A stretch of DNA of 64,000 nucleotides from Acidaminococcus timonensis (GTDB taxonomy: Bacteria > Bacillota > Negativicutes > Acidaminococcales > Acidaminococcaceae), in the NCBI RefSeq assembly GCF_900106585.1, contig NZ_FNWH01000006.1, positions 620,001 through 684,000 on the forward strand, written 5' to 3'. The notes under the pieces are model-generated. The model was not told where the DNA came from. It searched no databases and was given only the letters and a program-made list of their open reading frames with translations. Shown in pieces: positions 3,805-25,649 of this stretch; within the stretch, counting starts at the first letter, position 1, and each line of letters opens with the position of its first letter. Both the position numbers and the translations under genes were made by a program.

Positions 3805-5063
3805 CCATGAAGGTGAATGTGGCAGACAGCATGGGGCCGGCTTTCGACCCTGTATTCTGGGATGCCCAGCAGCACGGCCATACCTACTACTGGCTGGCCG
3901 GCGGGCGGGGCTCCACCAAATCGTCCTTCGTGGGCATGGAAATCCCCCTGCTGATGCTGCAGCATCCGGAGTGTCATGCTGTGGTCCTGCGGAAAGTGGG
4001 CGGGACCATTAAGAACAGCGTGTACCCGCAGATCCAGTGGGGCATCGAACAGCTGCAGATCATCGACCGATTCAAGTACAAGATGACGCCGCCGGAAATC
4101 ACCCTGAAGGGGACTGGCCAGAAAATCCTTTTCCTGGGCTGCGATGACCCCATGAAGGTTAAATCCATCAAGCTGCCTTTCGGTTATGTGGGCATCGTCT
4201 GGCTGGAAGAGCTGGACCAGTTCAGCGGCATGGAGGAAATCCGCAACCTGTGCCAGTCCCTACTGCGTGGAGGGCCCCGTTACTGGGTGTTCTGCACGTA
4301 CAACCCGCCCAAAAGTCGGAGTAACTGGGTGAATGAGGAGATCCTGGTGGATGATCCTGACCGGCTGGTGCACCGCTCCACCTATCTTCAGGTGCCACCA
4401 GAATGGCTGGGGGAACAGTTCCTCCAGGAAGCTGGAAAGCTCAAGGAGCGGAATGAAACAGCCTACCGTCATGAGTACCTGGGAGAAGTGACCGGCACCG
4501 GCGGGGCAGTCTTCGAGAACGTGGAGGACTTGCCTTTGACTGATGAAGCTCTAGGCCAGTTTGATCATCGTCTGTTCGGCCTGGACTTCGGGTTTGCTGT
4601 GGACCCCCTGGCCTTTGTGGCCATGCATTTCGACGCCAAACACGAAGATTTGTATATCTGGGGAGAGATCTATGAACAGAAGCTGACCAATCCCCAGGCT
4701 GTGGCCAGGATCAGCAAGATCATCCTGCCCCAGGAGCTGGTCCGCTGTGATTCGGCGGAACCCAAGTCCATCAAGGAAATGCGCTCCCTGGGCATGAACA
4801 TCATCGGGGCGGCCAAAGGACCCGACAGTGTGGAATATGGCATCAAATGGCTGCAGGGCCTGCGGCACATCTACATTGACAAGCGCCGGTGCCCCAACAC
4901 CTACCGGGAATTCATGACCTACGAATACGAACGGAACCGGCTGGGGCAGTACATCAGCGCCTACCCGGACAAAGACAACCATGCCATCGACGCTGTGCGC
5001 TATGGCTGCAGCGGCGTGATGCCGGTACGGACAACCATCCGTTCGGCCAGATTTGATTACTGA
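3801..5063 (+). CDS. terL: Terminase large subunit
   Basis: 420-residue ATPase-nuclease that pumps DNA into the prohead (PBSX/Terminase_3-like). The ATPase part shows a Walker A-type GGRGSTKS at 34-41, Walker B region GIVWLEELDQF near 131-141, and a coupling-type CTYNPP. The nuclease part begins near 258 with GLDFGF, then CDSAEPKS near 313 and a final acidic cluster in PDKDNHAIDAVRY. A second ATG at 3807 is also possible; the first overlaps the terS stop. Length and motif order fit an intact enzyme. Confidence 0.93.
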   Translation: MTMKVNVADSMGPAFDPVFWDAQQHGHTYYWLAGGRGSTKSSFVGMEIPLLMLQHPECHAVVLRKVGGTIKNSVYPQIQWGIEQLQIIDRFKYKMTPPEITLKGTGQKILFLGCDDPMKVKSIKLPFGYVGIVWLEELDQFSGMEEIRNLCQSLLRGGPRYWVFCTYNPPKSRSNWVNEEILVDDPDRLVHRSTYLQVPPEWLGEQFLQEAGKLKERNETAYRHEYLGEVTGTGGAVFENVEDLPLTDEALGQFDHRLFGLDFGFAVDPLAFVAMHFDAKHEDLYIWGEIYEQKLTNPQAVARISKIILPQELVRCDSAEPKSIKEMRSLGMNIIGAAKGPDSVEYGIKWLQGLRHIYIDKRRCPNTYREFMTYEYERNRLGQYISAYPDKDNHAIDAVRYGCSGVMPVRTTIRSARFDY

Positions 5064-5071
5064 GGGAGATT

Positions 5072-6475
5072 ATGAGCGAACGAGATTTTTATTTGAGCCC
5101 CACCGGCAACATGTACCGGCTGATGCGGGACTCCTACTATGGGGACGGAGGCTACCGGGGTGCGTACCTGATCCCACACAAGAGGGAAACCGAACAGAAC
5201 TACCGGGACCGTCAGCAGACGGCGTATTACCTGAACCATTTTTCCTTGATCGTGAACGCCCTGGTGAATCCCATCTTCAAGCGGCGGCCGCTGCGGGATT
5301 GGACCGGAACGGCCAGCCCGGTGGCAGAGGCGTTCCTGGAAGATGTGGACGGAGCCGGGAATGACATGGACAGCTTTATGCAGGCTGCGGCCCTGTCGGC
5401 CAAACTGTACGGAGCTGTTTTCATCGTGGTGGAGAACTTTCAGGCCATGGACCTGCCGGCTTCCATGGGTGAAGCCCTGGCCCAGCGGAAATTTCCTTAT
5501 GCGTACACCCTGGACCCGGACCGGGTGGAAGGCGTGAGTATCGACAAGAACGGCCGGGTGCTGTCCATCAAGTTCCGGGATACGGCGGTGAGCAGCACCA
5601 TGGGCGACGACAAGGAACGGACGGTGTACTTTGACACCCGGCGCTGGGCGGTCTACGAGAATGGCCAGATGGTTTCTTCCGGTGATCACAATCTGGGAGA
5701 GGTCCCGGTAGTGTGGTTCCCCAGCCAGCACGTGAAGAACGGCGAGCTGAATCCCACACCGGAGCTGTACCCTATCGCCGGGATCGCCTGCAGCCTGTAC
5801 AATCACTGCTCCTGGCTGACGGAAATCCTGCGGAACCAGACATTCCCGCTTTTGACTTTTCCCAGCAAGGAAGCTTCTGACCTGATTATCGGGAACAACA
5901 ACGCTCTTTGCTACGACGGGGACACGGTGCGGTTCCAGCCCGGGTTCATTTCCCCGCCCAGCGATCCGGCTGCGCTGATTCAGAGCCAGATCAAGAACAT
6001 GGTGGAAGAGATGTACCGGATTTCCGGGCTGACGTTCTCCACCACGACCAAACAGGAGGCCAGCGGCATCAGCCGGCAGTGGGAGTTCGAACGGACAAAC
6101 CAGCGCCTTTCTGCTTTTGCCAAGCGATGTGCGGCGGCGGAAAAGAAGATTCTGGCCCTGGTGGCCAAATGGATGGGCCTGGACCTGGAATACACGGCGA
6201 CCTACTCCAATGACTTCGGCATCACGGACGTGGCCACGGAGCTGAAGAACGCCCAGGCCGTCCTGGATATGCAGCTGACCAACAAAATCAAGGTGGAGGT
6301 GGCCAAACAGGTACTGACAGCTTATGTGCCGGAGCTGCCTGCTGACCGGTTTGATGCCATCATTACCGACATTGAAAAGCAGGAGACAGAGCCGGCTTAT
6401 AACGAGCCACCCCAGCCGGCTGAACCCCCGGAGCCGCCTGAACCAGAGGACGAAGAGGAACCACCGGAAGAGTAG
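5072..6475 (+). CDS. Phage portal protein
   Basis: 467-residue portal, the dodecameric ring at the packaging vertex. It follows terL by nine bases. The N-terminal part has the YRDRQQTAYYLNHFSLIVNA-type helix and a FKRRP stem common to portal families; the centre has an RISGLTF-containing segment and long helices of the stem and wing. The last 35 residues are a disordered Pro/Glu-rich tail (PPEPPEPEDEEEPPEE), which is unusual but seen in some phages. Position between terminase and MuF-like protein makes the call firm even though sequence identity cannot be checked here. Confidence 0.85.
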   Translation: MSERDFYLSPTGNMYRLMRDSYYGDGGYRGAYLIPHKRETEQNYRDRQQTAYYLNHFSLIVNALVNPIFKRRPLRDWTGTASPVAEAFLEDVDGAGNDMDSFMQAAALSAKLYGAVFIVVENFQAMDLPASMGEALAQRKFPYAYTLDPDRVEGVSIDKNGRVLSIKFRDTAVSSTMGDDKERTVYFDTRRWAVYENGQMVSSGDHNLGEVPVVWFPSQHVKNGELNPTPELYPIAGIACSLYNHCSWLTEILRNQTFPLLTFPSKEASDLIIGNNNALCYDGDTVRFQPGFISPPSDPAALIQSQIKNMVEEMYRISGLTFSTTTKQEASGISRQWEFERTNQRLSAFAKRCAAAEKKILALVAKWMGLDLEYTATYSNDFGITDVATELKNAQAVLDMQLTNKIKVEVAKQVLTAYVPELPADRFDAIITDIEKQETEPAYNEPPQPAEPPEPPEPEDEEEPPEE

Positions 6476-6482
6476 GTGAACC

Positions 6483-8039
6483 ATGGACGAACTGCAGCGG
6501 CAGCTGAAAGCCTTTTCCAAACGATATGGATTCCAGGGCCAGATGATGAAGGCCCGCATTGAGATTCTCATGAAACAGGGCAAGAGCCCGGAGGAAGCCA
6601 TCCGCCAGGTATTCAAGGAATACGGCGTGGAGGAATGGCTGCAGGCCAATGTGTCCAGCGTGATCGTTGGCACGGCCCAGGATGCCCTGGGGCAGGAACT
6701 GGCCAAAGACCTTCCTGCGGCTGCCCTGCTGGAAGCCCTGTCCAATCCCTGGGACGGCAGCGGGCTGACCCTGTCGGAGAAGATCCACGGTGCCAGCAAC
6801 ACCATGCTAAACGACGTGATCACCACGGTGCGGAAACAGATCCACCTGAACAAGACGGTGAAGGACACCGCCCAGGCCCTCTACGATGGCTACAAAAGTG
6901 GCCATGTAGTCAGGGAACAGCAGCTGCCCCAGTACCTGGATGAACTGACCCGGTGGACCCGGAGAAGCCGGGAGAACCTTTCCCAGGAAGAGCTGAAAGA
7001 CCTACAGCGGGCCATCCGTAAGGTGAAATACCAGGCGGATGATCTGGTGGATGACAGAGCCACCTACAATCACTTCAGAACGGCTTTAAACAACCTGTTC
7101 GATAAGTTAGACCAGGGGAGTGAAAAAGCCGCTGAGAAAGCCCTCCAGGTGGCCATAGAGGAAAAGAGCCGGTACGTTGCAGAACGGATTGCCCGGACAG
7201 AAGCCGCCAGAGCCCGTTATGATGCTTTCCTTGCCCGCTACGGGGAGGATGACAGCGTTGTGGCCTACCAGTGGAAGCTGGGAAGCCGGCATCCGGCAGA
7301 GGACATCTGCGACATGTACGCCCATGCGGATCTGTATGGCCTGGGGGCAGGAGTTTTCCCTAAAGACCAGGCTCCGGTGAATCCAGCCCATCCCCATTGC
7401 CTGTGCCATTACGCACCGGTGTACGCCAGCGAGCTGAAGGGAAAAAAGCGGTCTGACAACGTGGAGGGCCGGGGCAATGCCTGGCTGAAACGGCAGCCGC
7501 TGCACATCCGCCAGGCCATTCTGGGGATGAAAGGCGAACAGGAGTGGAAAGCCGGAAGAGCCGGGTGGATGGAGAAGGCAAGAAATATTGGGGTTACATC
7601 CTCTTATTCTCGCTTTAAAGAATTGGTTCATACTCTTAAAAGTAGTATAATAAGTGTAGATAAACTAAGAGCTGGAAAATTCCCAACAACACAGGACGAA
7701 ATTGATAATATTTTATCTAAAGAATTATCAGGAATTAGATTTTCTAGCAAGCCCACTTACAATTCAAGAATAAAAAGCCCAGGCAAAACCACAATTTCAA
7801 TATCACCACTTGGATTTCGAAAAATAAAGTCAATGGAAATAGGGAAACAATTCAAAGAGGGGAAGAATGAATTAATTGATACATTGATTCATGAGGAGTT
7901 AGAAGCCAGAATTGGCTTGAAAGCGGATAAAGCAGTTAAATTTTCTCGACTTGAAAATGCTAGTGAGGCAAGACGGCATAAATATATCAATGCCGTGATT
8001 GAAAGGTTCTTTGCTTTTAAGGGGTGGGAATATGAATGA
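6483..8039 (+). CDS. MuF-like minor head protein with toxin-like C-terminal domain
   Basis: 518 residues. The first 360 are a phage Mu gpF-type minor head protein: helical N-terminus, then RIARTEAARARYDAF, a Cys/His pair in EDICDMYAHAD and the ending NPAHPHCLCHYAPV. From about residue 363 (base 7575) the DNA turns sharply AT-rich and the sequence becomes a separate domain of about 155 residues with a HEELE motif at 470-474 (DTLIHEELEARIG). MuF proteins often carry swappable C-terminal effector domains delivered with phage DNA; this reads as one. The effector type is not recognised, and the HEELE motif might bind a metal. The next gene, also AT-rich, overlaps by eight bases and is the candidate immunity gene. 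Confidence 0.82.
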   Translation: MDELQRQLKAFSKRYGFQGQMMKARIEILMKQGKSPEEAIRQVFKEYGVEEWLQANVSSVIVGTAQDALGQELAKDLPAAALLEALSNPWDGSGLTLSEKIHGASNTMLNDVITTVRKQIHLNKTVKDTAQALYDGYKSGHVVREQQLPQYLDELTRWTRRSRENLSQEELKDLQRAIRKVKYQADDLVDDRATYNHFRTALNNLFDKLDQGSEKAAEKALQVAIEEKSRYVAERIARTEAARARYDAFLARYGEDDSVVAYQWKLGSRHPAEDICDMYAHADLYGLGAGVFPKDQAPVNPAHPHCLCHYAPVYASELKGKKRSDNVEGRGNAWLKRQPLHIRQAILGMKGEQEWKAGRAGWMEKARNIGVTSSYSRFKELVHTLKSSIISVDKLRAGKFPTTQDEIDNILSKELSGIRFSSKPTYNSRIKSPGKTTISISPLGFRKIKSMEIGKQFKEGKNELIDTLIHEELEARIGLKADKAVKFSRLENASEARRHKYINAVIERFFAFKGWEYE

Positions 8040-8352: not shown

Positions 8353-8631
8353 ATGAAGAACCTGAAAGCGATTGCGATGACGATGGCCCTGGTGGCCGGT
8401 ATTACGGGGACGGCCTTTGCCGCCGACATTCGGGAAATCGTAGGAGACCCTGGCACCGAGATCACGGACCGGAACCCCACCTGCTACCAGACCCGGGTAT
8501 TTAATGGCCACACCCTGGAATCCTACGTGGAAAATGATGTGGCCATCACGAAGGAGGATGGGGAAGTGGTGCTGGAATATGAAATCCAGCGGAGCGACTT
8601 TGTCCCCTTCGACTTCGATTCCAACCAATAA
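8353..8631 (+). CDS. Small secreted protein (moron)
   Basis: 92 residues with a clear signal peptide: MKNLK, hydrophobic core IAMTMALVAGITG, cleavage site AFA-AD near residue 24. The mature part is about 69 acidic residues with a single Cys and no recognised domain. It sits within the head genes yet has no structural role that I can see, and is bounded by two nearly identical stem-loops with T runs, the classical structure of a moron, an independently acquired gene. It would be exported to the periplasm or outside. A lysogenic-conversion or superinfection role is possible but not shown. Confidence 0.7.
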   Translation: MKNLKAIAMTMALVAGITGTAFAADIREIVGDPGTEITDRNPTCYQTRVFNGHTLESYVENDVAITKEDGEVVLEYEIQRSDFVPFDFDSNQ

Positions 8632-8648
8632 CCCATACATTACCCTGT

Positions 8649-8673
8649 GCAGACCTTATGGGCCTGCTTTTTT
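8649..8673 (+). terminator. Terminator after moron gene (copy 2)
   Basis: GCAGACC, loop TTATG, GGCCTGC, then six T. Near-duplicate of the element at 8301-8325. Confidence 0.7.
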
Positions 8674-8745
8674 ATTACCCTGATAGCATCGGCCAGGCGC
8701 CGGTCTATATAAATCAATTGCCCCAGGCGGGCAGGAGGAAACGAT

Positions 8746-9420
8746 ATGTATACCCTTGATCAAATCTTTGCCGCCCTTGGCGGGGTGGAAAACGGTGGTG
8801 CCATGGTGGCGGATCTGCAGGCCATCATCACCGGTGCCCGGAACGAAGCAGCCGCCAACCGGGTGGAACGGAACAAGGTGCTGGACGCCCTTGGCCTCCG
8901 TGGCAGCGAGAACCCCGAAGCGGCCCTGAACAACCTGCGAACGACTCTGGAAGCCCTGAAAAAGACAGGTAACCCGGAAACCCTGGGCAGTCAGATCACC
9001 GCCCTGCAGGACCAAGTGAAGGAGCTGACGGATAAGTATGCTGCATCCGAAGAAAAAGCCAAAGCTGAACACACGAAGCGCATCAACACGGCAATGCATT
9101 CTGCACTGCAGGCCGCCCTGGCCAAAGGGAATGCACTAAATCCGGAAGCTTTCATCAAGCTCCTGGAGGACAAGGTGGAAGTAGGCAATGATGATTCCCT
9201 GAGCATGAAGGTAGGGGACAAGGCCGTGTCTATCGACGAAGGTGTGAAGGACTGGCTGACGACCAACCCCTGGGCTGTGAAGAACACGGCAGCAGGCGGC
9301 GCCGGAAGCGGCAGCGCTGGCAATCCGAAAAAGGTGTATACCCCTGATGATCTGAAAGGCATGACGCCGGCTGAGATCAACGCACACTGGAATGAAATCA
9401 AAGATTCTATGAAAGGATGA
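8746..9420 (+). CDS. Phage scaffolding protein
   Basis: 224-residue, highly charged and mainly helical protein directly before the capsid gene, as expected for scaffold. The centre (about 65-125) is a coiled coil (LTTLEALKK, ITALQDQVKELTDKY). A Gly/Ala/Ser-rich linker near 187-197 precedes a small C-terminal helix pair (TPDDLKGMTPAEINAHWNEI), typical of the coat-binding end of scaffolds. It has a GCAGGAGG ribosome-binding site and overlaps a weak upstream start of the capsid gene. Confidence 0.78.
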   Translation: MYTLDQIFAALGGVENGGAMVADLQAIITGARNEAAANRVERNKVLDALGLRGSENPEAALNNLRTTLEALKKTGNPETLGSQITALQDQVKELTDKYAASEEKAKAEHTKRINTAMHSALQAALAKGNALNPEAFIKLLEDKVEVGNDDSLSMKVGDKAVSIDEGVKDWLTTNPWAVKNTAAGGAGSGSAGNPKKVYTPDDLKGMTPAEINAHWNEIKDSMKG

Positions 9421-18405: not shown

Positions 18406-19035
18406 ATGATATACGATTATCGTCTGGATCCCTGGAACAATGTGCTGGACATCCACAACATCAGCGGAGAACGGCACCAGATCCCGACTACAAGCCCGTT
18501 CACGGTGCGGCTTTTGGAGGTCCCCCAGAAAACGGAACCAACGTCCCTTTCTGTGACCTGCAACGGCGCGGCCATGACGGAAGTGGCGGCCACCCCGGAG
18601 CAGGGGCAGTTCTTTCCCGACTACCGGGCCAGTGTGACCGGGGACCCGAACTGGAACCGGGGCGAGCTGCTGTTCAATGCGGCGGATGCCGGGAAATGGA
18701 TTACGGTGAACTACCGGGGCATGGGTACCTTGATTGACAGCCGGCTGCCTGATATGCTGCAGCTGCCATTTTCCGGAAGCCAGCAGGCTGACCGGGAAAC
18801 CAATCTCAGCACGGCACCCAACAGCTGGGACTCCCAGGAGGGGAGCTCGCCCAAGGGGAAACCGATTTACGGCGGAAAGTTCCGGAGACACCGGGGCATT
18901 CCGGCGGGAACCTATTCCCTGCGGGAAATCCTGCAGAAGCTGATCAATCTTTCCAGCTCCACGGAGTTTGTGAGGACGGTAAGGGACTGTGACTGCAATT
19001 GCAGCGATGGCTGCAGCGATGACAGCGGACCTTGA
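18406..19035 (+). CDS. Tail-tip protein with Cys-rich C-terminal tag
   Basis: 209 residues, not matched to a known family. The body is beta-rich (SLSVTCNGAAMTEVAA, WITVNYRGMGTLIDSR) followed by a basic helix (SLREILQKLINL). The last 15 residues are RDCDCNCSDGCSDDSGP-like: four closely spaced cysteines and an acidic SDD-GP end. The same kind of end (C-x-C, then SDD) appears on the Cys-repeat protein at 21997-22311 and, past a stop codon, after 22323-22712. This links the gene to the radical-SAM cassette downstream, as another possible substrate or a partner. Position supports a structural tail-tip role. Confidence 0.6.
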   Translation: MIYDYRLDPWNNVLDIHNISGERHQIPTTSPFTVRLLEVPQKTEPTSLSVTCNGAAMTEVAATPEQGQFFPDYRASVTGDPNWNRGELLFNAADAGKWITVNYRGMGTLIDSRLPDMLQLPFSGSQQADRETNLSTAPNSWDSQEGSSPKGKPIYGGKFRRHRGIPAGTYSLREILQKLINLSSSTEFVRTVRDCDCNCSDGCSDDSGP

Positions 19036-19051: not shown

Positions 19052-19387
19052 ATGATCACCATAGATGATGCGCTGAATATCGAGGTATCTCAATATGATA
19101 CCTTTGCGCTGAAATTCATTTTTAAAAATTACAAGCTGGATGCGGATGACAAGGTGGTGTTCTCCATCAAGGCCACCACCAACAGCAATGAAGTGGTTTA
19201 TTCGGCCGAGTTTTACAATTCCGGGCAGAACTATGTGAACGTGGAAGTGCCCAAAGGGGCGCTGAACGACCTGCAGCCCGGGACGTATGTTTATGATCTG
19301 GTGATCATGAACAGCCGGACGAACAAAATCGTGACCTGCTTCTTCCCAGCCAGCTTCATCATCAGAGGGGTGGCCCACAATGTCTGA
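19052..19387 (+). CDS. Small baseplate/fibre-associated protein
   Basis: 111 residues, beta-sandwich-like, starting after a good AAGGAGGCAGC ribosome-binding site. The sequence ISQYDTFALKFIFKNYKLD-like start, VVFSIKATTNSNEVVY and GTYVYDLVIMNSRTNKI resembles the N-terminal domain of BppU-type baseplate proteins. It overlaps the fibre gene by eight bases, so probably holds or attaches the fibre. Confidence 0.6.
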   Translation: MITIDDALNIEVSQYDTFALKFIFKNYKLDADDKVVFSIKATTNSNEVVYSAEFYNSGQNYVNVEVPKGALNDLQPGTYVYDLVIMNSRTNKIVTCFFPASFIIRGVAHNV

Positions 19388-20891
19388 TAACGAAAAGACC
19401 CTGGAGATCCAGGTGGTCTCGGGGGCAGAAGGGCAGATTGATACGGGGGATACCTACGGAGCCGAACAGGCCAGGGAATATGCTGACGAAGCCGCCCAAT
19501 CTGCGGAAAAGGCCAAAGAATCCCAGAACCTGGCGGAAGCCTGGGCCCACAGTGACCAGGCCCCCGCCGGTGAAGGTACTCGGAGTGCCAAGACCTGGAG
19601 TAACGTCTCCAAAGAATGGGCAGAAAGCACTACGGCCCCGGATAATACCACCGGCTCCCGGAGTGCCAAGACCTGGGCTGACGTGGCCCGACAGTGGGCG
19701 GAGAGCGACAAGGAACCGGACGGGGTGAAGAACTCCAAGAGCGCCAAGACCTGGGCCGGGGTGGCCAATGACCACGCCAATACCGCCAGCCTGAAAGCCA
19801 ATGCGGCGGCTGCCAGTGCCAACACGGCAAGCCTGCAGGCCCAGGCGGCGGCAACCAGTGCCCAGACGGCAACTACGAAAGCAGGAGAAGCCAGCACCAG
19901 TGCCAGCAATGCGGCGGTGAGTGCGAAGGCTGCAGCGGATAAATACACAGCTCTGGTGAATGAGGATCTGACCAAGAAAGCAGATCTGGCTGGAGCGGAC
20001 TTCACTGGAAAGGTGACTGTTCCCACTGCGCCTGCCGGCACTAATGACGCCCAGGCGGCTACAACGGCCTTTGTTATGGCGGCGATTGCGGCCATGGTGG
20101 ATGGATCTCCTGAAGCCTTAGATACACTGAAAGAACTGGCTACGGCCCTGGGCAATGACCCGAACTTCGCCACCACAATCACGAACCTAATTGCCACGAA
20201 GCTCGACAAGACGGGGACGGCAGTGAAGGCAACCGGGGATGCGGCCGGAAATGATATCCAGAAAACCTATGCTACCAAAGAAGAACTGAATAAGCAGGGC
20301 GGGAGCCTGGCTACCGTAGCCACCACAGGAAGCTACACGGACCTGCTGAACCTTCCGGCCATTCCTTCTAAAACATCGGAACTGACCAACGACAGCCGGT
20401 ATGTTTCTACTGACGAAAGCGGCAATGTGGTACTGACCGGCACCCTGACCGCTACCCAGGTGTTCAACGCTGTTTATAACGACTACGCAGAGTTCTTCCC
20501 CAGGGGCGGAGATACGGAGCGAGGAGACATCATCGCCTGTGATGAAACAAGCAGCCGGGAACAGTACGTGAAGGCCACCGACAAGAGCCAGTGCGTGGTG
20601 GGGGTTCATTCGGAAGAATTTGCCCAGATTATTGGCGGCCTGCAGGTGGAAGAAGGCAAGGGTGTCATGGAAACCAACATCCGGCAATTCATCCCGGTGG
20701 CCATGGCCGGCCGTGTCCACGTGAAGTATTTCGGCAAGGCAATCGTGGGGACAAAGGTAGTCCCCTCTGAAATCCCCGGCGTGGGGAGAGCCTGGCAGGA
20801 AGGAGACAGCCTGGACCACGTGGTGGGCAGGATCGTGGAACCGGATACACGCCAGGATGTCCGGCTGGTGAAAATCCTGGTAGGGAGGTAA
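19380..20891 (+). CDS. Tail fibre with C-terminal G2/intramolecular-chaperone-like domain
   Basis: 503 residues. The N-terminal half is alanine-rich with three imperfect repeats of SAKTW-x(2)-V-x(4)-AES (about 65-135), then a long coiled coil of Ala/Ser/Thr (135-195). The middle has ATTAFVMAAIAA and SPEALDTLKELATALG, motifs common in tail-fibre shafts. The C-terminal part from about 360 (YNDYAEFFPRGG, then VVGVHSEEFAQIIGG and VAMAGRVHVK) matches the peptidase G2-type domain found at the ends of fibres, which can cut itself off after trimerisation. It lies directly before the first radical-SAM gene. Confidence 0.8.
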   Translation: MSDNEKTLEIQVVSGAEGQIDTGDTYGAEQAREYADEAAQSAEKAKESQNLAEAWAHSDQAPAGEGTRSAKTWSNVSKEWAESTTAPDNTTGSRSAKTWADVARQWAESDKEPDGVKNSKSAKTWAGVANDHANTASLKANAAAASANTASLQAQAAATSAQTATTKAGEASTSASNAAVSAKAAADKYTALVNEDLTKKADLAGADFTGKVTVPTAPAGTNDAQAATTAFVMAAIAAMVDGSPEALDTLKELATALGNDPNFATTITNLIATKLDKTGTAVKATGDAAGNDIQKTYATKEELNKQGGSLATVATTGSYTDLLNLPAIPSKTSELTNDSRYVSTDESGNVVLTGTLTATQVFNAVYNDYAEFFPRGGDTERGDIIACDETSSREQYVKATDKSQCVVGVHSEEFAQIIGGLQVEEGKGVMETNIRQFIPVAMAGRVHVKYFGKAIVGTKVVPSEIPGVGRAWQEGDSLDHVVGRIVEPDTRQDVRLVKILVGR

Positions 20892-20894
20892 TGT

Positions 20895-22004
20895 ATGGGA
20901 GACTTTTTGAAGAGAAACATCAACACCATCTTCCTGATGCTGGGGAACGGCTGCAACATGAACTGCCGGTACTGCCTGCAGCATCCCCTGGTGGAAAAGA
21001 GCCTGTCCGGCCATGTGAATCCGGACGTGTACCGGTTCATCCGGCAGGTGGTGGAGGAAAACGACGAAAAGACGGAACTGGGGCTGCACTTCTATGGAGG
21101 TGAGCCCCTTATCTATTTCCCGCTGATGAAAGAGATCATCGGGAAGCTGAAAGGCGTGAAGGGCATCCGGTTCAGCACCATCAGCAACGGCAAGGCCATC
21201 ACAGACGAAATGGTGGAGCTGTTCAACAGCCTGCCCCTCTACGTGTGCATCAGCTGGGACGGCCACAACGTGCTGCAGACCCGGGGCTATGATGTTTTCG
21301 CCAAGGGAAGCAAGACCAGGGAACGGCTGCTGAAGCTGGACCACCTGGGAGTAAGCGCTGTGCTTTCTGCGTACAACTACCCCCAGGAAGCTTGTGATGC
21401 CTTCCAGGAGCTCAGCAAGGATTATTTCGATATCCACGGGTATCCTCTGTCCTTTAACTACGACACCATCATGGACACCGGCCTGGGGGACAAGTCCCTG
21501 CTGGACATGGACTATGACAGGGTGGAACGGGAAGTGGGGACCATGATGGACCGGTACATGAAGTACCGGCTGGGCCAGGGAGAAATGAAATTCGCCGAGC
21601 TGGCCTTCATCGAAAGCCGGTTCAATGCTCTGTACAGCTATCTGCGCAAGGATGGGGACTTCTGGAGCCGCCAGTGGTGCACCTGCAACAACGGCTACAG
21701 CGTGCTGAACCTGGACCTGGCCGGGAACCTGTATCCCTGCCACAATACCAGCCAAAAGGCTGGGAGCATCTATGATTCCTATTTCAAGTATCTAAACGAG
21801 ATCCTGAAAACAGACCGGACGTTCGAGCGGCGGGAAAAGTGCCTGGATTGCCCGGCGGTGGCTTCCTGCAAAGGTGGCTGCAAGCTGGTGGCACCGGAGA
21901 ACATGGAAAAGGGGCTGTGCCGGCTGCGGCGGGCCATCTTTCTGCCCATCCTAAAAGGCACCATGGCCTATGGGCGGGAAATCATGGAGGCAGGAAATGG
22001 CTAA
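20895..22004 (+). CDS. Radical SAM/SPASM enzyme 1 (phage-encoded peptide modification)
   Basis: 369 residues. The radical-SAM cluster is C20-x3-C24-x2-C27 (NGCNMNCRYC), and the SAM-binding GGE is in FYGGEPLI near 69. The C-terminal part is a complete SPASM domain binding two further 4Fe-4S clusters: a first Cys, then G-x4-C (GNLYPC), then C-x2-C-x5-C-x3-C (CLDCPAVASCKGGC), then a last Cys. SPASM radical-SAM proteins cross-link or modify ribosomal peptides or act as sulfatase maturases. Here the next two genes encode small Cys-repeat proteins, and the first overlaps this stop by eight bases, so those are the likely substrates. Found in the tail region of a prophage, which is unusual. The start at 20895 follows GGGAGGTAAT. 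Confidence 0.88.
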   Translation: MGDFLKRNINTIFLMLGNGCNMNCRYCLQHPLVEKSLSGHVNPDVYRFIRQVVEENDEKTELGLHFYGGEPLIYFPLMKEIIGKLKGVKGIRFSTISNGKAITDEMVELFNSLPLYVCISWDGHNVLQTRGYDVFAKGSKTRERLLKLDHLGVSAVLSAYNYPQEACDAFQELSKDYFDIHGYPLSFNYDTIMDTGLGDKSLLDMDYDRVEREVGTMMDRYMKYRLGQGEMKFAELAFIESRFNALYSYLRKDGDFWSRQWCTCNNGYSVLNLDLAGNLYPCHNTSQKAGSIYDSYFKYLNEILKTDRTFERREKCLDCPAVASCKGGCKLVAPENMEKGLCRLRRAIFLPILKGTMAYGREIMEAGNG

Positions 22005-22311
22005 GAACGGTACCATCACCAAGACTACCTGGACGGCTATGGCTGCCGGGGATAAGGTGACGGCGGCCAATATCACAGAGCTCCAGACGGCCATTGCGGC
22101 CCTGGAGGGCTACGCCAAGAACGTGGACAACTGCGGGTTCACCAACTTCTGTCAGAAATGCCAGGCCTGCCAGGGATGCCAGACCTGTCAGAGTCAGACC
22201 TGTCAGAGCAGATCTTGCCAAGGGTGCCAGACGTGTCAGAAGTGCCAGAAGTGTCAGTTAATAAAAGTTTATGAGTGCAACTGCGACTGCGGCGGCTCCG
22301 ATGACAGCTGA
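21997..22311 (+). CDS. Cys-repeat protein 1 (candidate radical-SAM substrate)
   Basis: 104 residues, 15 cysteines. Residues 1-45 are a small helical domain with GDKVTAANITELQTAI, a motif found in tail proteins. Residues 46-87 are a tract of C-Q-x repeats, mostly Cys every three residues, interrupted by a C-Q-S-Q-T-C-Q-S spacing of five. The last 11 residues are ECNCDCGGSDDS. The gene overlaps the radical-SAM stop by eight bases and is followed at a strong AAGGAGG by a paralogous gene. It could be a precursor peptide whose repeats are thioether-linked, or a structural tail piece with bound metal. Both are inference; the composition is seen directly. Confidence 0.82.
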   Translation: MAKNGTITKTTWTAMAAGDKVTAANITELQTAIAALEGYAKNVDNCGFTNFCQKCQACQGCQTCQSQTCQSRSCQGCQTCQKCQKCQLIKVYECNCDCGGSDDS

Positions 22312-22322
22312 AGGAGGTGGCC

Positions 22323-22712
22323 ATGGATAAGGGAAATATAATTCTAACCACAGATATGACCGCCCTGCAATCCGACCTGGTGACCATCGCCACAGGAATG
22401 AAGCGGAGTACGGTGCTTGAGAACGCTGGCCATGTGGAAAAGGCTACGTATACGGGAAAGGTGCTGGCCACGGACATCCAGAACATCCGGGCAGCCATCA
22501 ATGGGCTGGAAGCAGAAAGCAGCGGGAATTGCTGTGAATCCAACTGCTGCCAAACATGCCAGGGGTGCCAGAGCCAGACTTGCCAAAGCAGTACCTGCCA
22601 GAGCTGTCAGGGATGCCAGACGTGTCAAAGGTGCCAGACCTGCCAAAGTGCAAGCCAATGTGTAAAGGAAGGACAGGGTGGCTCTAACGTCTACTATAAA
22701 GAATGTCGTTAA
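22323..22712 (+). CDS. Cys-repeat protein 2 (candidate radical-SAM substrate)
   Basis: 129 residues from the ATG at 22323, which has AAGGAGG six bases upstream; a GTG six bases earlier would put the Shine-Dalgarno inside the gene. It has the same build as the preceding protein: helical start (residues 1-65, with GKVLATDIQNIRAAINGLE matching the corresponding motif), then C-Q-x repeats from 70 to 108 with the same CQSQTCQS spacing, 15 cysteines in total. It stops at TAA at 22710-22712 after KECR. Directly after the stop, in the same frame, 16 further codons encode SINCGCGGGGSDDGGP and then TGA, closely resembling the end of the sibling protein. Either the gene has a nonsense mutation or the stop is read through. 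Confidence 0.8.
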   Translation: MDKGNIILTTDMTALQSDLVTIATGMKRSTVLENAGHVEKATYTGKVLATDIQNIRAAINGLEAESSGNCCESNCCQTCQGCQSQTCQSSTCQSCQGCQTCQRCQTCQSASQCVKEGQGGSNVYYKECR

Positions 22713-22763
22713 TCAATCAATTGTGGATGCGGTGGCGGTGGCAGCGACGACGGTGGGCCCTGA
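22713..22763 (+). other. In-frame extension after TAA resembling the shared Cys/SDD tail
   Basis: Sixteen codons in the frame of the preceding gene, beginning right after its TAA and ending in TGA at 22761-22763. The encoded SINCGCGGGGSDDGGP matches the tail type of the sibling (CNCDCGGSDDS) and of the tail-tip protein ending at 19035 (ending SDDSGP). This conservation of style argues that it was, or still is, translated. Confidence 0.6.
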
Positions 22764-22777
22764 GAAAGGAGAAAACC

Positions 22778-23182
22778 ATGATTGTGCAAGGAGACGTATT
22801 GACCAACGAAGGCCCGAAGGCCATCGAGGAAATCAAGGAAGGGGATATTGTCATCAACCTGGGGAACCGCCCCTGCCGGGTGGTGAAAGTGGAGAAAGCG
22901 GACGTGACGGAGGTCATCCGCTTTGCCAGCAACCCCCATCTGGTGATTGCCCGGGATACGGATATTGCCACCCGCTATGGCCGGGTGCAGGGCCGCAGCA
23001 TTACAGGCAGCACGGTGGAAGAAATGCTCTACCAGTGCGAGGCTCCCTGCTTTTACGATACCCTGGAACCGGGTACGCTGGACAGCCCGCAGCCGGGCTA
23101 TGAGCTGACGGTAGACAGCGGGGACGGGGTGTTCGTGGACGGCTACGGCATCTATGTGAAGAAGGAGGGCGAACGTGCTTAG
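22778..23182 (+). CDS. Hint-fold protein lacking self-splicing residues
   Basis: 134 residues from the ATG at 22778 after GAAAGGAGAAAACC. The sequence follows the Hedgehog/intein (Hint) fold: block A VQGDVLTNEGPKAIEEIKEGD at 3-23, a block B-like NPHLVIARDTDI near 53, and the last beta hairpin YELTVDSGDGVFVDGYGIYV near 108-127. The nucleophilic Cys or Ser that normally begins block A is replaced (MIVQG), and there is no terminal His-Asn. It is thus a stand-alone, probably inactive or repurposed Hint domain. It lies between the Cys-repeat genes and an unknown gene it overlaps by eight bases. A binding or structural role at the tail tip is possible. Confidence 0.68.
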   Translation: MIVQGDVLTNEGPKAIEEIKEGDIVINLGNRPCRVVKVEKADVTEVIRFASNPHLVIARDTDIATRYGRVQGRSITGSTVEEMLYQCEAPCFYDTLEPGTLDSPQPGYELTVDSGDGVFVDGYGIYVKKEGERA

Positions 23183-24017
23183 CGTACTGTATAACTCTGA
23201 TTCGGTGGCCACCCGGGATGACGGGGCGGTCAAGATCACTATCAAAGGGATGTATCTCAAGGCCGAAGTGATGGACAAGAACGGGACGGTGGATGGCTTC
23301 GACGTAATCAAGGCCCTGCGTTCCTACAGCTCTTATACTCTGGTCCATCGTTCCGGCTTTGTGAAGGTTTTCCGGAAGATTTCCAAATCTGATTACAAAT
23401 TCCTGGACCTGAACCGGCTGGGCGTGGGGATCCGCATGGACTTCCAGAACATCTGCCAGCTGTACGGGGATTATGACGTTCTGCAGGTGGATACGGGCCT
23501 TATCACACCCACAAGCCGGGATATCATCATCCGGGTGTTCGAAATCCACAAGGACAACATCCTGGTGGATGCGGACAGTGACTATACTTTTTCTGATTTC
23601 AGCACTGCGGCCCTGGAATTCGGGGATCATCCCCGGTTCAACCTGTGGGACAGCTATGCCCTGGTTGTGAATGGCCGGGAGCTGAAGGCCAACCGGAAGG
23701 GGACCGTGTACGAAGGAGATTTTTCTACGCCCATCGTCTGCCCGGAAGGCCAGGAATACATGGAACTGGAAATCCGGAAGTATAAAGGGAACTTCGACAC
23801 TACAGCCGGCCCGCTGACCCGGGCGGAGGACTGTGAAGGCGTGATGATCCACGCTAGTGCCGGGCTGCTCAATGCCACCCGGGTGCGGCTGGACCATGGC
23901 GTGGCCAAGGTGCGATTCTACCCGCTGGGGTACACGGGTGAAATCAAGATCAAGCTGGGCCGGAAATGGTACGAAGTTTGGAACGAGTACAACCTGATTG
24001 TAGGTGAGACGAAATGA
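23175..24017 (+). CDS. Unknown protein of the radical-SAM cassette (280 aa)
   Basis: 280 residues from a GTG within the end of the Hint gene. No family recognised. The protein is beta-rich and aromatic throughout, with only a few Cys. The C-terminal 90 residues (VVNGRELKANRKGTVYEGDF, VRLDHGVAKVRFYPLGYTG, IKLGRKWYEVWNEYNL) look like an immunoglobulin-like or jelly-roll domain, consistent with a surface-exposed tail protein. It overlaps the second radical-SAM gene by four bases, so the two are co-translated. It could be the acceptor protein modified by that enzyme. Confidence 0.6.
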   Translation: MLSVLYNSDSVATRDDGAVKITIKGMYLKAEVMDKNGTVDGFDVIKALRSYSSYTLVHRSGFVKVFRKISKSDYKFLDLNRLGVGIRMDFQNICQLYGDYDVLQVDTGLITPTSRDIIIRVFEIHKDNILVDADSDYTFSDFSTAALEFGDHPRFNLWDSYALVVNGRELKANRKGTVYEGDFSTPIVCPEGQEYMELEIRKYKGNFDTTAGPLTRAEDCEGVMIHASAGLLNATRVRLDHGVAKVRFYPLGYTGEIKIKLGRKWYEVWNEYNLIVGETK

Positions 24018-24991
24018 AGAGCGTGACCATCTATCTGGGCAGCAAGTGCAATATGGATTGTGCCTACTGTCACCGGGAACCGGACCCGGAAGAAGATAAA
24101 GGACTGCCTCCGGAGTTTTACAGCCGGCTGCAGCAGATGGCGAAGGAAGGCCCCCTGACCGTGAAGTTTATGGGCGGGGAGCCTACCTTGTATATGGACA
24201 CCATTAAAAAGGTGGTAGAGTCCGTCCCTGATGCCTCTTTTGCCATCGCCACCAACGGGAAGAACCTGGAATGGTTTCTTCCATCCTTCCGGGCCAACCA
24301 TTTCAAGATTGCTCTCAGCTATGATGGCGGGGATGTTGACCTGCGGGGATTCAACCCGCTGGAGAAGCTGGTGGATTATCCCTACCTGAGCATCAGCACT
24401 ACGATCTTCCACGGAAACACCGATTTCCGGAAGATCCTGGCCCAGTTCCGGGAGAAGCGGGAAAAGGGGATGCGGATTTCTTTCTTTCCTCATTTGGTTC
24501 ATCACACCAGCCCGGCCAACGCCGCCTATGCCCTGACCAAAGAAGATTACGCCAGTGTGCTGCGGCAATGGAAGGAACTGGTCTTGGAGCTGGTGGATGG
24601 ATACAAGAAAACCGGGAAAATCAACTGGGAACTGACAGCGCTATTCTATGGTCTGTTCCGCCGGCTAGAAGCCAACTACCAGTATGGCGAAACGTACTGT
24701 TTCAACCGGAACCTGTGGAAGGTGGGGCCTACGGGTAAGTTATTCAGCTGCTTCTATATCCGGGACGTTCCCCTGGATCCGAAAAACTGGCAGGATCAGC
24801 AGGCTGCCCTCCTGGATTACCTTTTCCCCAAATGCAAGGGGTGCAAGGTGTACGGGATGTGCGGAGGTGGCTGTCACAAGAGCCTGGACCATGAGCAGGA
24901 ATGTGAATTCTACTATGCCCTGTATTCCTGGTTCCAGGAGTTGGCCGATAAGGAGCCGGCAGTCTGGAGGCTGGGCAATGCTTTACAGTAA
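24014..24991 (+). CDS. Radical SAM/SPASM enzyme 2 (phage-encoded)
   Basis: 325 residues. Radical-SAM cluster C12-x3-C16-x2-C19 (SKCNMDCAYC), GGE in FMGGEPTLY near 53. The C-terminal SPASM signature is complete: C-x(n)-G-x4-C (GKLFSC), C-x2-C-x5-C-x3-C (CKGCKVYGMCGGGC) and a last Cys in EQECEFY. It is only distantly similar to the first enzyme of the cassette, so they probably act on different substrates or different residues. It starts inside the stop of the unknown 280-residue gene and its end overlaps the next unknown gene by 14 bases, an operon arrangement that suggests these three work together. Confidence 0.88.
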   Translation: MKSVTIYLGSKCNMDCAYCHREPDPEEDKGLPPEFYSRLQQMAKEGPLTVKFMGGEPTLYMDTIKKVVESVPDASFAIATNGKNLEWFLPSFRANHFKIALSYDGGDVDLRGFNPLEKLVDYPYLSISTTIFHGNTDFRKILAQFREKREKGMRISFFPHLVHHTSPANAAYALTKEDYASVLRQWKELVLELVDGYKKTGKINWELTALFYGLFRRLEANYQYGETYCFNRNLWKVGPTGKLFSCFYIRDVPLDPKNWQDQQAALLDYLFPKCKGCKVYGMCGGGCHKSLDHEQECEFYYALYSWFQELADKEPAVWRLGNALQ

Positions 24992-25649
24992 GGACAGTGT
25001 GTTCGTTGTGTTCCCGGACTGTATCCAGAGCAGCCAGGAGGAAGAACTGTGGGTGGATCTGGTGGGGAGCCGGCTGGAAATCGTCCATAATGGCAATCCC
25101 ATGACTATCGACCTGGACGCCCTGGCACCCTGTTCTTCTACCCAGGTGGTGACGGGCAGGGCCGGGGATATGGTCCTGTACAACTACCGGGAACTGCTGA
25201 TGATCTACGGGCTGAAGCCCCTGGAATTCCTGCAGGTGTTCCGGCTGCATGGCTGGGTGCAGGTGGATAAGACCCATCGGGGCGTATTCGTGAAGATCTT
25301 TTGCCCCTGTGGGCAGACGGATCCACGAAGCAGCCGGACGGATTGGAGCAAGTGCCAGCATGCCGACCCGGGTGAACTGCATCCAGTTGACCGGAAAAAC
25401 TCCTGGGCCTTTACCCTGGAAGATTACCAAATTACCGGCCGGGTGCTGCACGTAACCGGGACACTGTGGAAATCCCCTTTGTGGCAGGATGAAATCCTGT
25501 ATTTCAACCACGGGGGCCAGGCGATTCCTCTGCAGGAAGGGGAGAACAGTTTCAATCTGCTCTATGTGCCTGGAGAAGATGTTTATATGGGGACGAAGTA
25601 CAGCCGGTATCCTGGCCGGTGTATCAAGCTGACGGAGGGGAGAAAGTGA
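24978..25649 (+). CDS. Unknown protein of the radical-SAM cassette (223 aa)
   Basis: 223 residues from the ATG at 24978, overlapping the second radical-SAM stop. Not recognised. The first half has a Leu/Val-rich region around VLYNYRELLMIYGLKPLEFLQVF; the second half holds three cysteines in KIFCPCGQTD and WSKCQHAD, then a beta-rich end (ILYFNHGGQAIPLQEGENSFNLLYVPG). The end resembles the style of the 280-residue protein (aromatic beta strands). Likely the last gene of the tail-tip cassette, since a membrane protein of the lysis module starts in its stop codon. Confidence 0.55.
   Translation: MLYSKDSVFVVFPDCIQSSQEEELWVDLVGSRLEIVHNGNPMTIDLDALAPCSSTQVVTGRAGDMVLYNYRELLMIYGLKPLEFLQVFRLHGWVQVDKTHRGVFVKIFCPCGQTDPRSSRTDWSKCQHADPGELHPVDRKNSWAFTLEDYQITGRVLHVTGTLWKSPLWQDEILYFNHGGQAIPLQEGENSFNLLYVPGEDVYMGTKYSRYPGRCIKLTEGRK

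Follow-up and report, generated by a model that had tools for sequence, protein, structure and literature searches.

What are two radical S-adenosylmethionine (rSAM) enzymes with SPASM cysteines doing among the tail genes of a phage? The question is raised by a 64,000-nucleotide stretch of the Acidaminococcus timonensis genome (contig NZ_FNWH01000006.1, positions 620,001 to 684,000; hereafter the window), in which a prophage carries, directly after its tail fibre gene, a cassette of two such enzymes (rSAM1 and rSAM2), two Cys-Gln-x repeat proteins (CQ1 and CQ2), a small Hint-like protein and two beta-rich proteins (b280 and b223). An earlier note on this DNA had proposed that the phage modifies tail-tip proteins during assembly, with CQ1 and CQ2 as the candidate substrates. 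Here, we find that tracts of alternating cysteines lie on tail proteins, both in this prophage and widely in phage DNA, that they sit at the C-terminus or directly before Hint or Peptidase_S74 (S74) domains, and that they are associated with rSAM genes and with genes resembling b280, so that the emphasis now falls on tail proteins with C-terminal tracts, and less on the Cys-Gln proteins. Judged from sequence comparison, the cassette is probably a phage-encoded tail-maturation module in which rSAM1 modifies these tracts.

The Cys tail of t209 tracks the enzyme

The tail protein t209, encoded upstream of the cassette, ends in ...RDCDCNCSDGCSDDSGP, a tail of the same kind as that of CQ1 that had been overlooked in the earlier note. 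The DNA pattern for (C[ND])2C has exactly two matches in the window, namely the t209 tail and CQ1, against a chance expectation of 0.02. A search with t209 gave matches in 15 of 300 genomes of the class. All eight t209 copies from prophages with an rSAM1 homolog bear a CxC tail (G000, G006 twice, G002, G003, G014, G019 and G024; for G002, whose contig was taken as circular, tail and rSAM gene lie at its opposite ends), and the tail is absent from all seven more distant homologs (L394-L400) with no rSAM in the nearby DNA examined. The remaining matching genome, G040, has an rSAM gene and a tail-less t209 homolog; here the next gene encodes a fibre-like protein that ends in VNCNCTCSGTCG. Within the t209 family, the Cys tail tracks the enzyme.

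The family also has a GTYTLRxxLQxLVNxS stretch that resembles, by eye, an L..LL[N..]...H.H-type pattern. The idea of a universal recognition helix before the tract, based on this pattern, was not retained, as the strict form occurred in 4 of 119 distinct tails. PDB sequence searches with t209 and with the tract protein of viral locus L065 (see below) gave nothing better than E 0.011 and 0.028, respectively; these marginal hits were treated as chance. In genome G052, locus L044 encodes a 161-amino-acid protein (8522-9007) with NCDCNCDCDC and repeated SSDCDC, which precedes an rSAM1 homolog; apart from it, a weak fibre match is all that this locus shares with the tail genes of the window.

Cys tracts and rSAM genes co-occur across viral contigs

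IMG/VR was scanned for DNA coding (C[ND])4C, with a scan of the same form for (S[ND])4S (Ser for Cys) as a control; each yielded at least 120 loci, of which 120 were analysed, and the counts from these scans, here and below, are among the matches listed. Tracts were termed C-terminal if no more than 15 residues from the stop, and an rSAM open reading frame (ORF) was one with CxxxCxxC in the same locus. C-terminal tracts were present in 83 of the 120 loci, and an rSAM ORF accompanied 68 of these 83, compared with 4 of the 37 other matches (Fisher p 9e-14, copies not removed) and none of the 120 control loci. Three of the four exceptions (L075, L105 and L123, with identical proteins) have a tract followed by an S74-like domain, while in the fourth (L063) the tract is terminal, the ORF being truncated where the contig ends, and this locus was kept among the 37 in the counts. 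Locus L143 likewise shows, by eye, an S74-like continuation after the tract, at the contig end and with no rSAM in the DNA examined. The tract proteins formed 18 clusters at 40% identity, 14 of which had an rSAM, and the rSAMs of 51 rSAM-bearing loci (from the first 80 of at least 120) formed 12 clusters at 50% identity.

The reverse approach, starting from homology to rSAM1, recovered a strict C-terminal tract in 29 of 79 loci, versus 0 of 120 control loci. A looser tract pattern was non-discriminating (19 of 120 control loci matched, mostly through Cys runs in spurious frames) and missed both Campylobacter phage CP220 and Achromobacter phage JWF. The residues between tract cysteines were Asn (54%), Asp (22%), Ala (20%) and others (4%; 209 positions from 45 tails, near copies included), and several tracts ended in Asp-rich SDD or GDD. 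Small tract proteins of 57-79 amino acids (HTH[IV]F[YF]DDY[STG]TAC[ND]C) were observed in L055, L057, L094, L101 and L129, the loci of which hold several rSAM genes, up to four in L057.

Alternating Cys tracts could ligate metals, with which the Asp-rich ends would agree, and phage tail regions exchange as blocks. It could accordingly be argued that the tracts bind a metal or iron-sulphur cluster or form disulphides while the rSAM enzymes target something else, or that tract and enzyme merely share an exchangeable tail cassette. We regard this as unlikely, given that the association spans many tail-protein clusters, that the tail is missing from each of the t209 homologs with no nearby rSAM, that the neighbourhood of the rSAM enzymes showed no further conserved protein as a candidate substrate, and that SPASM-type enzymes act on peptides or proteins. 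Modification of the tracts by the neighbouring enzyme is the reading we prefer.

Tracts before Hint and S74 domains, and related arrangements in named phages

The tail fibres of Achromobacter phages JWF (KP202971; ...NCNCDCNCNCS-CFPAGT...) and 2-1 (OQ974181; ...NCNCDCNCS-CFPAGT...) carry a tract that meets a Hom_end_hint domain (PF05203; E 3e-12 and 5e-12; 47.5 and 46.6 bits, cut-off 32.1). The Hint profile starts with a Cys directly after the tract, at residues 308 and 306, respectively. In both phages the gene 3' of the tract-bearing fibre is a single partner gene, followed by an rSAM. JWF and 2-1 thus resemble the cassette in having a fibre tract, a partner and an rSAM/SPASM gene (PHROG 1802 in the 2-1 record) in the tail-to-lysis interval, but differ in that one protein carries both the tract and, after it, the Hint domain, the partner belongs to another family and there is one rSAM. 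The record annotations examined for the two phages do not remark on a link between tract and enzyme. JWF came from sewage and 2-1 from waste water, so that the earlier suggestion of a modification for gut conditions finds no support; the arrangement is widespread in phage DNA and no peculiarity of the gut. A freshwater phage has also been reported as related to JWF (PMC9959647; this and the other papers cited by PMC number were consulted as excerpts).

The fibre of L065 is homologous to that of JWF (32% identity over 285 columns, E 8e-30) and matches a PHROG tail-fibre family (7.4e-7); it lacks a Hint domain and terminates in ...NCNCNCNCDCYC. In L075, Peptidase_S74, an intramolecular chaperone, comes after the tract (Pfam 1.4e-4, 22.5 bits, cut-off 22). 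Hint domains cleave ahead of their own first Cys, and S74 domains release themselves by self-cleavage; if they do so here, the mature chain in all three forms (Hint, S74 and plain stop) would terminate within or close to the tract. It may well be, although this is slightly less likely than not, that tailed phages of very different hosts share a dedicated post-translational system, a so far overlooked general chemistry of tail tips, that covalently cross-links C-terminal Cys tracts of tail fibres or tail tips into a cap, with Hint or S74 release in some lineages.

In Salmonella jumbo phage SPN3US, too, a pair of rSAM genes lies 3' of Cys-repeat ORFs and of tail gene 168, but this phage differs from the cassette in lacking a CxC tract and in that its Cys-repeat ORFs are unannotated in the record. 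The gene for gp168, a tail protein (PMC5105663), is directly upstream of the Cys-repeat ORFs; that paper makes no mention of gp163, gp165, gp166 or gp167. Three tandem ORFs were observed in SPN3US (L290, JN641803) at 6103-6495, 6506-6910 and 6926-7132, two of them with 20-21 cysteines; they lie upstream of the rSAM pair with one 295-amino-acid gene between, and the record annotates another frame (6579-6914). Campylobacter phage CP220 (L294, NC_027997) likewise encodes a Cys-tract protein near an rSAM gene. This protein of 534 amino acids (4140-5744), annotated as hypothetical with repeat regions, contains 35 Cys and six CxCNYCT-type repeats and is encoded 2.2 kb upstream of the rSAM gene. Excerpts of a study of Campylobacter phage IBB_35 report 38 virion proteins by mass spectrometry, with no statement on a Cys-repeat protein in this set, and call radical SAM unusual in a Campylobacter phage (PMC3322345).

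The two enzymes and the chemistry they may perform

Both rSAM frames were confirmed to be intact, as the earlier note had described, and both encode CxxxCxxC and seven SPASM cysteines. The two enzymes match Pfam PF04055 (radical SAM) above the cut-off, at 1.8e-10 and 9.1e-10. In a 20-sequence alignment that includes rSAM2, CxxxCxxC is invariant, as are the seven SPASM cysteines (rSAM1 C264, C282, C316, C319, C325, C329 and C342; 20 of 20 aligned). With the SPASM model TIGR04085 (cut-off 27 bits), rSAM1 scored 37.5 bits, above the cut-off, and rSAM2 24.1, below it. The NCBIfam model closest to both enzymes is PapB (NF047865; 2.2e-27 for rSAM1 and 2.1e-15 for rSAM2), with scores of 96.2 and 56.8 bits that lie under its equivalog cut-off of 340 bits; other maturase models rank behind PapB, all below cut-off. 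A prokaryotic viperin (pVip) with a defence function was considered and rejected, as the PADLOC viperin match was limited to the core region (6e-13), the NCBIfam viperin match was below cut-off, and the SPASM cysteines were present.

Like the PapB, ranthipeptide and SCIFF maturases (NF047865, TIGR03974), which act on Cys-rich substrates with Asp near Cys, the cassette enzymes have SPASM cysteines; unlike them, they belong to a phage structural gene set and are proposed to act on tail proteins that bear tracts at the C-terminus. PapB cross-links Cys-Xn-Asp with n = 0-6, poorest at 0 and 6 (PMC9413430). The PapB-type array of Cys-X3-Asp/Glu motifs is absent from CQ1, CQ2 and t209, where the spacing is Cys-Gln-x or CxC; CQ1 has a single CGGSD. 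Furthermore, rSAM1 matches the model of RumMC, the sactipeptide maturase of ruminococcin C (2.1e-12, below cut-off). In ruminococcin C1 the rSAM enzyme links Cys to Asn, Ala and other acceptors (Cys3-Asn16, Cys5-Ala12; PMC8172795). RumMC differs from the cassette in having an antimicrobial peptide product, an alpha-carbon bond and no tail protein. Finally, rSAM1 matches the model of the quinohemoprotein amine dehydrogenase maturase (TIGR03906; 5.1e-17, below cut-off), an rSAM enzyme that matures a protein subunit and not a secreted peptide; here the difference is that the target is a redox enzyme subunit and not a virion. Because PapB joins Cys to Asp and sactipeptide enzymes use Asn and Ala, a Cys tract with Asn, Asp and Ala is, by analogy, a plausible substrate for a PapB-type or sactipeptide-type bond.

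In the mechanism that we propose, rSAM1 would act on the t209 tail and on CQ1 and CQ2 during their synthesis, before or during tail assembly, and would modify them covalently, the most likely product being thioether links between Cys and adjacent Asn, Asp or Ala residues. rSAM2 may handle further sites, rSAM2 and b223 being the putative second enzyme and partner of this branch, and b280, which has an Ig-like domain, could be a partner presenting the tail or a co-assembling component. The likely gain would be a compact, stiff, protease- and redox-proof end of the tail part. The present data separate no bond types, and the regular alternation of Cys with small residues would also suit enzymes that epimerise or otherwise modify the tract backbone (e.g., D-residues) with no cross-linking; this we consider very improbable, as PapB, the top-ranking curated model, and several others near it describe maturases that form thioethers, and known rSAM epimerases differ in architecture. 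Thioether cross-linking of the tracts therefore stays our favoured chemistry. The earlier interpretation is supported in part. Its core proposal, a modified virion as opposed to a secreted peptide, gains strength from the tracts at the C-termini of tail and fibre proteins, which co-occur with the enzymes in unrelated phages.

Observations that weigh against a general tract system

A number of observations count against the proposed role of the enzymes. An rSAM was absent from the DNA examined around 15 of the 83 C-terminal tracts, of which 8 had less than 1 kb of downstream DNA, 3 were spurious-looking ORFs (49-53 amino acids) and 4 had 1.1-2.4 kb; the contigs of two of these 15 (L074 and L086) were also recovered, with an rSAM, in the rSAM-homology scan (L326 and L355). 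Conversely, 50 of the 79 rSAM-homology loci had no strict tract. Re-examination by eye covered 35 of these, together with L313, which has a strict tract; 14 of the 35 carried Cys tracts that were shorter or had another spacing, or else repeats of the CQ type (L309, L310, L312, L315, L317, L325, L352, L356, L358, L359, L362, L364, L368 and L372), and many of those re-examined were tract-less (e.g., L314, L316, L318 and L332-L335). The tract system therefore does not take in every phage rSAM. Two gut-phage contigs with an rSAM likewise had no tract in the region examined; the gene after the rSAM resembles bacterial SecD, and we assume that these may not be phage genes. The Cys tract closest to the rSAM gene of CP220 lies inside its protein, about 190 residues short of the C-terminus.

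A coarser 'dense Cys' measure separated the sets poorly (34 of 79 rSAM loci versus 26 of 120 controls). Many loci are near copies, and the Fisher and binomial values assume independence and so overstate the evidence. The seven tail-less t209 homologs match t209 partially, mostly in the N-terminal half, and two of them are on contigs of 8.7 and 5.3 kb. Lastly, the closest-model scores are far under the PapB cut-off (96 versus 340 bits).

Relation to published work

Enzyme and substrate type are familiar from radical-SAM/SPASM protein maturation, and it is the setting on tail proteins that appears to be new. No description of a link between tail tracts and radical SAM appeared in the search listings of the open-access literature; radical-SAM cassettes have been described, in the excerpts consulted, as varying between pelagimyophages (PMC7029224). 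If the proposal is correct, radical-SAM chemistry would shape infectious virus particles, beyond secreted peptides or enzymes, and phage genes annotated as 'radical SAM domain-containing protein' (e.g., PHROG 1802) would gain a testable function. It would also predict which virion proteins bear the modification and point to an enzyme family that may be useful for protein engineering, through cross-linking of genetically encoded Cys tails in large proteins. Usual virion proteomics could miss cross-linked Cys tracts, as their mass would be changed and their fragmentation may be poor.

Prophage setting and conservation of the cassette

The home of the cassette is a siphovirus prophage within the Acidaminococcus chromosome, with named close relatives in A. 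fermentans and A. provencensis. The late genes run in the order terminase, portal, head morphogenesis, capsid, tail tube, tape measure, Dit, a YQBQ-like protein in the Tal position, t209, t111, tail fibre and cassette (rSAM1, CQ1, CQ2, the small Hint-like gene, b280, rSAM2 and b223; Table 1). Two small genes in the holin position and an amidase follow 3', in agreement with the placement of the cassette between tail fibre and holin in the earlier note, with a siphovirus structural operon around it. The genes are tightly packed, but the description of all of them as overlapping does not hold at the CQ1/CQ2 and CQ2/Hint junctions.

Table 1. Coordinates in the window of the cassette genes and of two upstream tail genes
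Feature	Coordinates	Strand	Remarks
t209, tail protein	18406..19035	+	Directly follows the Tal-position gene; ends in the Cys tail CDCNCSDGCSDDSGP; candidate substrate
Tail fibre protein	19380..20891	+	Matches PHROG tail fibre (E 4.9e-30); lacks a Cys tail in this prophage
rSAM1, radical-SAM/SPASM	20895..22004	+	Intact; proposed tract-modifying enzyme
CQ1, Cys-Gln-x repeat protein	21997..22311	+	Ends ECNCDCGGSDDS; proposed substrate
CQ2, second Cys-Gln repeat protein	22323..22712	+	Proposed substrate
Small weakly Hint-like protein	22778..23182	+	Without N-terminal Cys
b280, beta-rich, Ig-like C-terminal domain	23175..24017	+	Family is a widespread neighbour of tract/rSAM genes
rSAM2, radical-SAM with SPASM cysteines	24014..24991	+	Intact
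b223, beta-rich	24978..25649	+	Model pLDDT 92; present in 11/11 Acidaminococcus-type loci

A search for the same operon in other phages and prophages, which the earlier note had put forward as a check, was positive. The cassette is syntenic in nine loci from IMG/VR and the genomes of five relatives (L001-L003, L024, L025 and L039-L042, which include copies of one prophage, e.g., L002 and L025), with rSAM1 identities of 47-99%. Two further relatives, L043 and L045, retain rSAM1, b280, rSAM2 and b223; no CQ homolog was found in either, and their tail proteins still bear Cys tracts. Relative to the A. fermentans copy, the ratio of nonsynonymous to synonymous substitution rates (dN/dS) was 0.14 for CQ1, 0.14 for rSAM1, 0.08 for rSAM2, 0.06 for b280 and 0.09 for b223, within a range of 0.05-0.37 for all comparable genes; t412 had no amino-acid change, and CQ2 was too diverged for a value. 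A third, partial match to rSAM1 was observed in the host genome (G000:C6:169684-170046), in a 481-amino-acid open frame outside the window.

CQ1, CQ2 and the Hint-like protein

That the two Cys-Gln repeat proteins are real genes is borne out by homologs at the same place in the nine related loci and by the low dN/dS of CQ1. Each contains 15 cysteines. They are still proposed as substrates, but are not the most conserved likely substrate, given their apparent absence from L043 and L045; as sole substrates they were rejected, both rSAMs being kept in these two relatives. The CQ2 frame runs on past its TAA (22713-22765) with SINCGCGGGGSDDGGP before the next stop (CGCGGGGSDD-type). In the IMG/VR relative L001, a comparable CDC...SDDGGP tail is inside the CQ2 gene, and some other relatives have no such tail.

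Small Cys-repeat proteins beside two rSAM/SPASM enzymes resemble clusters for ribosomally synthesised and post-translationally modified peptides (RiPPs), and SPN3US likewise has Cys-repeat ORFs beside two rSAM genes. CQ1 and CQ2 might then be precursors of a prophage RiPP (a bacteriocin, signal or superinfection-exclusion peptide), with their place in the tail region incidental. This is quite unlikely in our view: no exporter or processing peptidase was found among the cassette proteins with Pfam and NCBIfam (more distant host genes were not searched), larger tail proteins terminate in tracts of this type as well, and two relatives retain both rSAMs with no CQ homolog found. Tail-protein maturation accommodates CQ1 and CQ2 as additional candidate substrates.

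The description of the small protein at 22778-23182 as having a Hint fold is weakly supported, by a Pfam Hint_2 match (E 0.0035) below cut-off and an hhalign probability of 12%. A catalytic N-terminal Cys is absent from this protein and from seven aligned homologs (8 sequences), and neither this residue nor an above-cut-off Hint profile marks it as a self-cleaving domain.

b280, b223 and alternative partners

Predicted models of b280 and b223 are both beta-rich, as had been proposed. The b280 model (mean predicted local distance difference test score, pLDDT, of 77) has an Ig-like domain at residues 156-280, for which the best fold match was 5euv_A (VIA Z 9.5, root mean square deviation 2.7, 94 aligned); the N-terminal half was barely covered by the fold search. 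For b223, no confident PDB fold match was obtained (best Z 6.5), and its best BFVD matches are to models of uncharacterised proteins from Caudovirales (E 3.9e-6).

A profile of the b280 family gave 33 distant matches (E 5e-6 to 0.9) among 8,039 ORFs, all 33 of which overlap or are no more than 150 bp from a tract or rSAM gene, compared with 273 of 977 similar-size ORFs in a background that takes ORFs on any frame. Iteration from the environmental member L079 converged on 88 ORFs, including window-type members with a best E of 1e-54 in the last round, for which they were themselves part of the profile. Among loci with both tract and rSAM, a b280-like gene was present in 44 of the 67 from the tract scan and in 24 of the 29 from the rSAM scan, a partner of LEAQVDLL type instead in 12 of 67 and 2 of 29, and one or the other in 56 of 67 and 26 of 29 (controls 0 of 120), leaving 11 of 67 and 3 of 29 with neither. 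A b280-like gene also occurred in four tract loci with no rSAM in the DNA examined. The LEAQVDLL partner family is also present in JWF and 2-1, and its members were observed beside an rSAM, in the place of b280, at L049:5108-5830, L291:4285-5007, L065:4459-5157, L117:7111-7899 and L046:9058-9822.

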